Assembly (NCBI GenBank): GCA_900299185.1
Contig: OMIV01000003.1
Location: 1-62,895, forward strand
DNA length: 62,895 bases
Reading direction: 5' to 3'
Source: Planctomycetaceae bacterium
GTDB lineage: Bacteria > Planctomycetota > Planctomycetia > Planctomycetales > Planctomycetaceae
Within the stretch, counting starts at the first letter, position 1, and every line of letters begins with the position of its first letter. Shown here piece by piece: positions 47,060 through 50,241 of the stretch. A program made the translations under genes and the position numbers. Below the pieces are notes generated by a model. That model saw nothing but the letters and a program-made list of their open reading frames with translations, was not told the DNA's origin and did not search any database.

Positions 47060-48343
47060 TTACTTCGCAGCGACCGAGTATCGAACTTGGCCATTCACAA
47101 AAACCGTGTGAGCTCGCCCTTTGACTGCTCGTCCGCCAAACGGGGTATTGCGGCTCTTGGAACGAAATAGAGATGGGTCGATTGTCCATTCGGCATTGGG
47201 GTCTATCAAAGTCACGTCAGCATCGGCCCCTGACTGCAAGGTTCCTTTTTGAATCCCCAACAGTTTCGCGGGACCAACAGTTAGCTTCGAAATCAGCTGT
47301 GGCCAAGTGAGATGTCCGGGCTCGATTAAGGTTTGGATGCAAATCGGAAGTAGCGTCTCCAGTCCTACGATTCCAAATGGGACTTGATCCAGTTCTAGAT
47401 CTTTTTCTTCCGACGCATATGGCTCGTGATCGGAGCTTATGATTTCGATCGTGCCGTCTCTTAAACCTGCAATTAGGGAATCGATGTGTTTTTTGGGACG
47501 CAACGGCGGCGAAACTTTGTAATTCGGGTCATAGCTTTGCAGCTCAAAATCGGTCAGTGCGAGGTGATGCGGAGTGACATTGCAAGAAACTTGCACGCCT
47601 TTCTCTTTGGCTCGGCGGATCAGGTCGACACTCACTGTCGTTGAAACACACAAGACATGTAGTCGAGCTTGGGTTCTCGCGGCGAGCGCGATGTCCCGGC
47701 TCACCATGATGCTTTCGGCTGCTGAAGGGATGCCGGACAAGCCAAGCACCGTTGAGAAGTACCCCTCGTGCATAACTCCATTGCGAGCAAGTTCGGGCAC
47801 GAGCGGGAAGCTGATTACCGCACAGTTAAACATCTTCGCGTATTCGAGCGCGCGCCACATGATTTCGGCGTTGGCAATTGGATGCTTGCCATCGGTAACA
47901 GCAACAGCACCGCCCTCTACGAGTTGTCCGATCTCGGCTAGTTCTTGACCGGCGTTGTCTTTGGTGACCGAACCTAAAGGGAACACATTGCAGTTCCCCG
48001 CTCGCTTTGAAAGGAGCGTTACGAACTCGGCGGCACCACGATTATCGATTGCGGGGTTCGTATCAGGTCTGGCTGCGATTGAAGTAAAGCCGCCAGCGAC
48101 AGCAGCTGCGGTTCCCGTCGATGACGTCTCGTCTTCCTCATTGCCTGGTTCTCGCAGGGCAACATGAATGTCTATCAATCCCGGACAGACAATGAGCCCC
48201 GTTGCGTCGATCAGCCGATCTGCGACGGTTGTTCCGTTGTCAACGCCGACCACTCGATCGTCTCTCAGCAAGAGATTGCCAATGCGATCAATGTTCTGGC
48301 TGGGATCGATAATTCGCCCGCCGCGAATCAGCGTTGTCGTCAT
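47060..48343 (-). CDS. Dihydroorotase homologue with most metal ligands replaced
   Basis: The 427-residue protein is clearly a class I dihydroorotase-like amidohydrolase (GLIVCPGLIDIHVALREPG, GGFTSIAARPDTNP, VPFGIVGLETLLP, KLLGIQKGTLQSGADADVTLID). Ligand positions compared with the Aquifex enzyme: His60 kept, second His of HxH is Ala62, Asp151 kept, His to Phe179, His to Cys232, Asp305 kept, with DHAPH read as DHEPY (Tyr309). This is the pattern of an inactive pseudo-DHOase, as with Pseudomonas PyrC', which supports aspartate transcarbamoylase. It starts immediately after glnS (TAGATG), so it is translationally coupled. No pyrB is in the window. Confidence 0.85.
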   Translation of the reverse strand: MTTTLIRGGRIIDPSQNIDRIGNLLLRDDRVVGVDNGTTVADRLIDATGLIVCPGLIDIHVALREPGNEEDETSSTGTAAAVAGGFTSIAARPDTNPAIDNRGAAEFVTLLSKRAGNCNVFPLGSVTKDNAGQELAEIGQLVEGGAVAVTDGKHPIANAEIMWRALEYAKMFNCAVISFPLVPELARNGVMHEGYFSTVLGLSGIPSAAESIMVSRDIALAARTQARLHVLCVSTTVSVDLIRRAKEKGVQVSCNVTPHHLALTDFELQSYDPNYKVSPPLRPKKHIDSLIAGLRDGTIEIISSDHEPYASEEKDLELDQVPFGIVGLETLLPICIQTLIEPGHLTWPQLISKLTVGPAKLLGIQKGTLQSGADADVTLIDPNAEWTIDPSLFRSKSRNTPFGGRAVKGRAHTVFVNGQVRYSVAAK

Positions 48344-50053
48344 CTAGTCGCCCTTTGATTGCACCTTAGCCCATGAGTCTTTGAGTGTGACCGTGCGGTT
48401 AAAGACTAACTGATTCTCCGTCGAATCTTTATCGAGGCAGAAGTAGCCATTCCGCTCAAACTGGAATTTGGCCATTGGAGCCGCTGTTGCAAGGCTCGGT
48501 TCGAGCTTGCAGCCGGCCAGCACCTGCAACGAGTTCGGGTTGAGATACTTCTTCCAGTCTTCCCCTTCCGGAATTGCTCCGGCATCGGGGATCGACAGCA
48601 AGCGGTCATAGAGCCGCACTTCCGCATCGACGGCTTGCGGCGCGGAGACCCAATGAATCGTCCCTTGCACTTTGCGGCCGTCAGGAGCATTACCGCCACG
48701 AGTAGCCGGGTCGTACGTGCAACGCAGTTCGATGACGTTGCCCGCCGCGTCCTTCACGACATCGACGCACTTCACGAAGTACGCATACCGCAGCCGCACT
48801 TCACGACCGGGACCGAGCCGGAAGAATTTTTTGGGCGGGTCTTCCATAAAGTCGCTTTGCTCGATGTACAGCTCGCGTGAGAACGGAACTTGCCGCGTGC
48901 CATAGCTCGCGTCTTCGGGATTGTTGATCGCCTCTAGCTGCTCGACTTGCCCTTCGGGATAGTTGTCGATGACGACCTTCAGCGGGTTGAGCACGCCCAT
49001 CACCCGCGGGGCTCGCTTATTGAGGTCTTCGCGAATCGCCTGCTCAAGCCACTCCATCTCAACGAGGCTATTGAACTTCGCGACACCGATCCGCTCGCAG
49101 AACGCTCGCAGCGACTCGGGCGTATAACCGCGCCGACGCAAGCCGCAAATCGTCGGCATGCGCGGGTCGTCCCAACCGCTGACGTGCTTCGCTTCGACAA
49201 GCTCAAGCAGTTTCCGCTTGCTCATCACGGTGTAAGTGAGGTTGAGTCGCGCGAACTCAATCTGCTGCGGATGATGAATGCCGAGCTGCTCGATGCACCA
49301 ATCGTAGAGCGGTCGATGATTCTCGAATTCGAGCGTGCAGATCGAGTGCGTGATGCCTTCGAGCGAATCGTTTTGCCCGTGCATCCAGTCATACATCGGG
49401 TAGATGCACCACTTGTCGCCGGTGCGATGATGCGACGCATGGCGAATGCGATACAGCAATGGATCGCGGAGATTCATGTTCGGCGAAGCCATATCGATCT
49501 TCGCCCGCAGCACCATTTTGCCGTCGGGGAATTCGCCCGAGCGCATGCGACGGAAGAGCGACAAGCTCTCGTCGATGGGCCGATCACGATAAGGACTATT
49601 CGAGCCGGCTTCAGTCAGCGTGCCGCGTCCCGCGCGGATTTGTTCAAGCGTCTGCTCGTCGATGTAAGCCTTACCGTCGAGGATCAGCTTCTCGGAGAAC
49701 TGATAAATCTGCTCGAAGAAGTCCGACGCATAAAAGAGCCGGTCTTCCCAATCGAAGCCAAGCCAGCGCACGTCCTCCATGATGGAGTCGACATACTCGA
49801 CGTCTTCTTTGGTCGGGTTCGTGTCATCGAACCGCAGGTTGCACTTGCCGCCGTATTTCTTCGCGAGACCGAAGTTCAAGCAAATGGACTTTGCATGGCC
49901 GATGTGCAAATAGCCATTCGGCTCGGGCGGGAAGCGCGTATGAACTCGCCCACCATTCTTCCCGGCGGCGATATCGCGTTCGATGATTTGCTCGATGAAG
50001 TTCAGCGATCGAGCTTCGTCACGAGCCTTCGCATCCGTGTGGTTTGTTTCCAT
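48344..50053 (-). CDS. glnS: Glutaminyl-tRNA synthetase
   Basis: The 569-residue class Ib synthetase has the HIGH motif as [15 protein letters not shown], the KMSKS equivalent VMSKRK, and the GlnRS-specific region [15 protein letters not shown] and [14 protein letters not shown] (here [16 protein letters not shown]). The two C-terminal beta-barrels read [16 protein letters not shown] and [14 protein letters not shown]...[17 protein letters not shown]. The ATG at 50053 has GGAG upstream; the frame remains open to 50179. It is coupled to the pseudo-dihydroorotase gene. Confidence 0.95.
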
Positions 50054-50241
50054 GAGTCGACTCCATTCGTGACGGTGAGCTGATTTCCTGAAACCAGCAG
50101 CGCAGTGGCTATCTGAAGCTAGCATCTGCATGTTTTGCAGATTGGCCATCAAACTCAAAACATCTAGTTCGGCGCGCAAAAATAAGCCGGAACCATCGAG
50201 TGATCCCAGCTTATTTGTATGAGTTGCGAACCAACTAGGTA

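Follow-up and report, generated by a model that had tools for sequence, protein, structure and literature searches.

The locus considered here raises the question of whether a gene that reads as a dihydroorotase (DHOase) still encodes that enzyme. The window, a stretch of 62,895 nucleotides, is the entire contig C3 of a planctomycete draft genome (G000; 7.87 Mb, 97% complete). An unbroken open reading frame of 427 codons coincides exactly with the interval in which the first-pass annotation had placed a DHOase homologue; the frame lies on the minus strand, which that annotation had not named, and the plus strand contains many stop codons across the interval.

47060..48343, minus strand: pseudo-dihydroorotase gene (PyrC'/PyrX-like), 427 amino acids (open reading frame, TIGR00857 match, Aquifex alignment)

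The product is a full-length class I DHOase homologue by both its score and its predicted fold. It matched NCBIfam TIGR00857 (class I DHOase) with 364 bits against a cut-off of 279, while no other model among the best 25 exceeded its own cut-off. By sequence its best solved relatives are the Aquifex DHOases, which bears out the homology proposed earlier.

Active-site residues were numbered as in the Aquifex DHOase, by alignment of the 427-amino-acid protein with that enzyme. The following codons are altered.

48158..48160, minus strand: codon 62, Ala for the metal ligand His63 (Aquifex alignment)
48062..48064, minus strand: codon 94, Asp for Asn95 (alignment and column counts)
47888..47890, minus strand: codon 152, Gly for the metal ligand Asp153 (Aquifex alignment)
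47885..47887, minus strand: codon 153, Lys for Gly154 (column counts)
47807..47809, minus strand: codon 179, Phe for the metal ligand His180 (Aquifex alignment)
47648..47650, minus strand: codon 232, Cys for the metal ligand His232 (Aquifex alignment)
47417..47431, minus strand: codons 305-309, DHEPY for DHAPH, with D305 retained and H309 changed to Tyr (Aquifex alignment)

Four of the six metal ligands (H63, D153, H180 and H232) are gone, and N95 and H309 are changed as well, so that zinc ligands and substrate residues are both lost (H63A, D153G, H180F, H232C, N95D, H309Y). H61 (as H60), R65 (as R64) and D305 are retained. We take Asn95 and R65 to be substrate-side residues, and His309 of the DHAPH motif to be a substrate residue and no metal ligand. 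The first-pass annotation had named the changes from HxH to His-x-Ala62, from His to Phe179, from His to Cys232 and from DHAPH to DHEPY, and the alignment reproduces all of them: H61 is kept as H60 and H63 is A62, Phe179 stands at H180, Cys232 at H232 and Y309 at H309. Its description of the four histidines as metal ligands holds for H63, H180 and H232 and fails for H309, presumably a substrate residue. It also listed two retained aspartates. Asp305 does remain; Asp151 arose from a slip of register, the ungapped alignment of TDDGSPV (Aquifex) with TDGKHPI placing the ligand D153 opposite Gly152 and Asp151 opposite the adjacent D152, which rules out Asp151 as a retained metal ligand.

In one report, zinc in the Aquifex enzyme is bound by His61, His63 and Asp153, and an H180A/H232A mutant retained full activity (PMC3880350). 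Because that mutant is fully active, the loss of the beta-site residues H180 and H232 by itself proves nothing. It is the changes at H63, D153, N95 and H309 that argue, at the level of sequence, for an inactive protein.

If the protein is no longer an enzyme, its genomic company may indicate what retains it. The gene lies behind a glnS-like gene, as annotated earlier, its ATG starting at the very next base after the glnS-like TAG (zero gap); the glnS-like gene is counted among the surroundings and is no component of the system.

48344..50179, minus strand: glnS-like gene, directly upstream of the pseudo-DHOase gene (named by eye)

The annotation had also found no pyrB nearby. This is correct for the contig that forms the window and incorrect for the genome, which encodes a standard PyrB at G000:C1:39984-40874 (313.5 bits, over cut-off). 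The two genes are thus unlinked in the source genome, linkage being usual in the family and not counted as defining. We take the family, f1, as Planctomycetaceae in a broad sense, since the f1 clade of the PyrC tree contains Thalassoglobus neptunius. In 100 of the 111 f1 genomes with a pseudo-DHOase, including the sister species G001, pyrB lies directly upstream on the same strand (median gap, 39 bases). Among the other 11, G117 has a 1.2-kb gap, the genes are apart in the source genome and in genera g16 (four genomes) and g28 (two genomes), and G013 and G030 run into contig edges; in G089 the pseudo-DHOase gene lies 262 bases from the contig start, too near for linkage to be called. In two of the four g16 genomes some 7 kb separate the genes, which lie on opposite strands; in the one g28 genome that is a single contig the distance is 3.2 Mb. 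Since both genes are kept, the missing linkage in the source genome and a few relatives does not count against a scaffold role, and the fact that they persist at separate loci speaks against mere hitchhiking. In G001 the glnS-like gene, an ffh-like gene (also named by eye) and pyrB-pyrC' occupy three different contigs, and for this reason the glnS-pyrC'-ffh neighbourhood of the window looks like a rearrangement.

The analysis of co-occurrence covered 134 f1 genomes with a completeness of 90% or more, the source genome included. A pseudo-DHOase was present in 111. Standard PyrB was present in 112, only a longer aspartate transcarbamoylase (ATCase; about 200 bits) in 11 and a split-match type in 10, and G115 was without any ATCase match. 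The pseudo-DHOase accompanied standard PyrB in 111 of 112 genomes and was not found in any of the 21 whose sole ATCase is a replacement (Fisher p 1.5e-23, with relatedness ignored). In the single exception, G091, pyrB is cut by a contig end on the side where the pseudo-DHOase would be expected. The standard-PyrB group includes G018 and G129, whose matches fall short of the cut-off because contig ends truncate them. First-look candidates numbered more than 13 in 11 genomes of the replacement group; G009, G027 and G032 among them were fully scored separately, and in the other 8 only 13 of 14-20 candidates were scored, so that absence there is less secure.

The longer ATCase was read in G003, G017, G027 and G034 (G003 and G017 are less than 90% complete and lie outside the 134), and the split type in G009 and G032. 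In both of the latter the catalytic part is followed by a fused PyrI_C-like zinc domain; against a cut-off of 23.4 bits the domain scores 27.0 in G032 and, marginally too low, 23.0 in G009. All further members of the two types were assigned from match pattern alone. The longer proteins (L133, L134, L135 and L136) are frames of 402-471 amino acids under the TIGR00670 cut-off, and this type replaces PyrB several times in f1. The fusions of ATCase with a PyrI_C-like zinc domain include L137:1495-2892 and L138:1345-2865, and the pseudo-DHOase was not found in those genomes. On the RpoB tree the replacements in G027, in G034 and in G009 with G032 are separated by genomes keeping both genes; there were therefore at least three separate replacements of PyrB. 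G003 and G017 are represented in that tree by less than half of the columns. Genus g34 contains nine genomes with the long ATCase only and without pseudo-DHOase, and four with standard PyrB and pseudo-DHOase. G148, also of g34, carries standard PyrB, the pseudo-DHOase and the long ATCase together (G148:C220, G148:C258), which could reflect an ongoing replacement or mixed binning. Separately, one genome has a second ATCase match of unusual strength (G160:C76:7677-8558, 360 bits), possibly contamination.

These distributions bear on the possibility that the protein keeps the amidohydrolase fold for a new function unrelated to PyrB, whether other catalysis or moonlighting. The gene is indeed unlinked from pyrB in the source genome, and new residues have arisen in the pocket: an acid at Aquifex position 95 is paired with a base at 154 in 32 of 39 f1 pseudo-DHOases (some of them near-duplicates), here as Asp94 and Lys153. 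The pair occurs in 0 of 15 intact enzymes and is not shown by families f4 and f5. Position 307 is Gln or Arg in 36 of the 39, and Glu in the source protein. Our guess is that the acid/base pair might stand in for the metal as a salt bridge, or else serve as an effector site. A function independent of PyrB would nonetheless have to accommodate the position of the gene directly behind pyrB in 100 of 111 genomes and the failure to find it in the 21 genomes with a replaced PyrB, also within g34, whose other members keep both; we consider it very improbable. Co-loss of pseudo-DHOase and PyrB could itself be partly hitchhiking, given the usual adjacency of the genes.

Whether the protein could still be a DHOase was considered in the light of its orthologues, which were found in 53 of 59 genomes, G000 included. 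Among the 30 complete f1 orthologues, H63, D153 and H232 are kept in none, N95 in 1 and H309 in 3; H180 is kept in 16, H61 in 23, R65 in 27 and D305 in 29. The fragment G036 was left out of the ligand counts and the trees. In f4 (n = 3 genomes) H61 and H63 are kept in 3, R65 and D305 in 2, H180 in 1, and N95, D153, H232 and H309 in 0. In f5 (n = 4 genomes) H63, D153, H180, H232, D305 and H309 are kept in 0, H61 in 3, R65 in 4 and N95 in 2. All nine catalytic residues are kept in 15 of 15 genomes of f2, f3, f6 and f7. Of 65 named loci, 48 were used and 17 left out; the alpha site is broken in 17 of the 48, including Rhodopirellula and Rubripirellula MAGs and Thalassoglobus neptunius, and 3 of these 17 overlap G001, G007 and G031. 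Loss is concentrated on catalysis: 109 columns are invariant in 33 intact planctomycete enzymes; of these columns, 69 remain at least 90% conserved across 29 f1 proteins (G036 and G008 left out) and 11 are lost in most, and 5 of the 11 fall in the nine catalytic positions (hypergeometric p 0.0004). On sequence, then, the f1 pseudo-DHOases appear to have lost catalysis and held much of the rest. The lost positions H63, D153, N95 and H309 are filled by varied residues in f1. Two very diverged pseudo-DHOases, L118 (G008) and G059:C311, show 35-36% identity and are still directly behind pyrB; that of G008 keeps one of six metal ligands. Another planctomycete PyrC, L174:5001-6272, has H61, H63, D153, H180 and H232 intact with N95D, D305N and H309Q, and may possibly represent an early stage of inactivation.

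The first-pass annotation had proposed counting other pyrC genes in the genome, and the count turned up a second DHOase, the L002 ORF (442 amino acids), which matches PRK07575 with 692.8 bits against a cut-off of 529; the source genome therefore has a separate dihydroorotase as judged by sequence only. The ORF carries a motif that is presumably of the carboxy-lysine type, along with HCED, HVLHVS and DHAPH, and has DDQVH in place of HxH. DDQVH is also present in Porphyromonas gingivalis structure 2gwn, titled putative dihydroorotase. E. coli-type PyrC was rejected as the real DHOase, TIGR00856 giving only 31 bits, under its cut-off, and that on the other DHOase. A second DHOase-like gene, of the L002 type or of another, was found in 37 of the 38 f1, f4 and f5 genomes with an orthologue and in 0 of 15 intact-enzyme genomes. 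The exception, G018, has a pseudo-DHOase with no second DHOase found, and is a draft that is 91% complete. The main (D) type has QxH for HxH in 26 of 30; 4 of the 30 rows missed some motif patterns (G040, G044, G049 and G057), and G049 has the residues on full reading. In the other (T) type, of 13 rows, three sequences were read by eye, and the match in G004 was 256 bits against the TIGR00857 cut-off of 279; by sequence, the activity of this type would be less certain.

A DHOase still active through a modified metal site, possibly a mononuclear one, or through a different mechanism is to be weighed against the residues themselves. Aquifex DHOase works without H180 and H232 (PMC3880350), and H60, R64 and D305 are kept in the source protein, as D305 (29 of 30), R65 (27) and H61 (23) are in f1. 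Against these stand the 30 complete f1 orthologues, all of which have lost H63 and D153, 29 of them N95 and 27 of them H309, with varied replacements, and the second DHOase-like gene in 37 of 38 genomes. Of the alpha-site residues H61, H63 and D153 of a catalytic class I dihydroorotase, only H61 is retained in the source protein, and an active class I DHOase was rejected on this ligand loss. We regard continued activity as very improbable.

The protein has nevertheless been maintained. dN/dS was 0.02-0.07 for nine close pseudo-DHOase pairs (some sharing a member) and 0.02-0.10 for four intact-enzyme pairs, whereas the two pairs of the source genome itself were saturated in dS; purifying selection on pseudo-DHOases is strong, as on the intact enzymes, in related pairs. 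The structure predicted for the 427-amino-acid protein has a mean pLDDT of 95. The top VIA-align matches were two ATCase-bound Aquifex DHOase structures, 3d6n and 4bjh (Z 63.0 and 62.8), with 1.3 A over 421 residues and 39% identity; free Aquifex DHOase entries, in which fewer residues are present, gave Z 53.8-56.1 over 361-371 residues. Ranked by Foldseek E-value, the leading match was Bacillus anthracis DHOase 4yiw, followed by 3d6n. The predicted fold thus appears intact and close to that of ATCase-bound Aquifex DHOase. A decaying pseudogene, or an artefact of assembly or annotation, has a negligible chance of being correct: the surroundings at glnS differ from those in the sister species, but the open frame, the high-confidence predicted fold, dN/dS of 0.02-0.07 in related pairs and presence in 111 of 134 f1 genomes all speak against it, and a pseudogene was rejected on the purifying selection.

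Trees were used to ask how often catalysis was lost. In a PyrC tree built without the ligand columns, f5 groups with the intact f7 and a Pirellulales MAG; four duplicate named rows were dropped from this tree, and G008 from its AU test. A single origin was not rejected with PyrC only (AU p 0.249) or with RpoB alone (p 0.699, the tree holding the broken ones together being the likelier; G000, G015, G018 and G036 of the 59 had no RpoB match and are absent). The RpoB + PyrC concatenation joined f5 with f7 (100/99) and f1 with them (99/99), left f4 outside, and rejected one clade of all broken proteins (p 0.002). It covers 32 of 59 genomes (LG+G4, rooted on f2 and f3), with 10 hand-picked f1 genomes and f7 represented by one genome; the source genome is outside it and is assigned to f1 from the PyrC tree. 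Because the concatenated tree rejects a single clade, and on the assumption that a lost metal site is never regained, the result implies that f1, f4 and f5 were inactivated separately. We tentatively extend this to a proposal that may well be wrong, though it deserves consideration: the ATCase-bound DHOase was inactivated at least three times in one bacterial class once a second DHOase was present and survived every loss as a scaffold, in the manner of a one-way ratchet, with f1 emptying its zinc pocket and then rebuilding it around the Asp/Glu95-Lys/Arg154 pair and Gln/Arg307, as a salt bridge for the metal or as an effector site controlling ATCase.

In answer to the opening question, the gene encodes a pseudo-dihydroorotase without its metal centre, very probably kept as a structural subunit of the lineage's aspartate transcarbamoylase while a second enzyme would perform the DHOase chemistry. 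The first-pass annotation had suggested a PyrC'-like pseudo-enzyme with a structural job alongside PyrB, and this stands as the best reading, supported by ligand loss throughout f1, purifying selection, the predicted fold, linkage to pyrB in 100 of 111 genomes, absence where PyrB is replaced, and the second DHOase. By analogy with Aquifex and Pseudomonas, two PyrB trimers would be joined by paired pseudo-DHOase chains into a dodecamer, six chains of each protein, and PyrB would thereby be made stable or active; the L002 ORF, of PRK07575 type, would supply the DHOase chemistry. In the source species the gene would have moved from behind pyrB to behind glnS, the subunits then being made from two loci.

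The name 'dihydroorotase' given by TIGR00857 to the source protein and two relatives scanned is probably wrong, also for related planctomycete families, and in reconstructions of the pyrimidine pathway in planctomycetes the second DHOase is the likelier enzyme. The lineage offers a natural series, from intact enzyme through repeated loss of catalysis and retention as a scaffold to disappearance when the partner is replaced, and opens to direct test how a protein that has lost its chemistry can come to be indispensable. In the open-licence literature (titles and abstract openings), no paper on a planctomycete pseudo-DHOase was found among the matches listed.

Several known systems can be set beside this protein. 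Intact Isosphaeraceae PyrC (e.g. of Singulisphaera) is 60% identical to it and has all nine sites, a full active site; no second DHOase was found in the 15 intact genomes. In the PyrC tree the seven f2 genomes fall with Isosphaeraceae, and every one of them has pyrB immediately upstream. The class A1 DHOase-ATCase complex of Aquifex aeolicus (3d6n, 4bjh) provides the nearest solved structures by VIA-align; its DHOase is an active subunit with all metal ligands, whereas the source protein has lost four of six. Pseudomonas has a separate DHOase elsewhere in its genome. Likened by description, the planctomycete arrangement resembles Pseudomonas class A2 PyrC'/pDHO, an inactive-looking class I DHOase homologue with PyrB and a separate DHOase; P. 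aeruginosa pDHO is inactive yet needed for ATCase activity (PMC7053772). Also likened by description is smc01361 (the proposed PyrX) of the alphaproteobacterium S. meliloti, a gene annotated as a dihydroorotase and adjoining pyrB; its disruption led to pyrimidine auxotrophy despite an essential PyrC elsewhere (PMC5929573). From P. aeruginosa and the proposed PyrX we infer dodecamer assembly with PyrB and a need for the pseudo-DHOase. Unlike Pseudomonas PyrC', the source gene is unlinked from pyrB and the f1 pseudo-DHOases are nested among intact planctomycete enzymes; because of this nesting we infer an origin separate from that of Pseudomonas PyrC'. The planctomycete pseudo-DHOase is thus best read as a class A2-type ATCase scaffold subunit, of a kind known from Pseudomonas PyrC' and Sinorhizobium PyrX and here in a new lineage, notable for the recurrence of its inactivation and for its co-loss with PyrB, a retention that depends on the partner.
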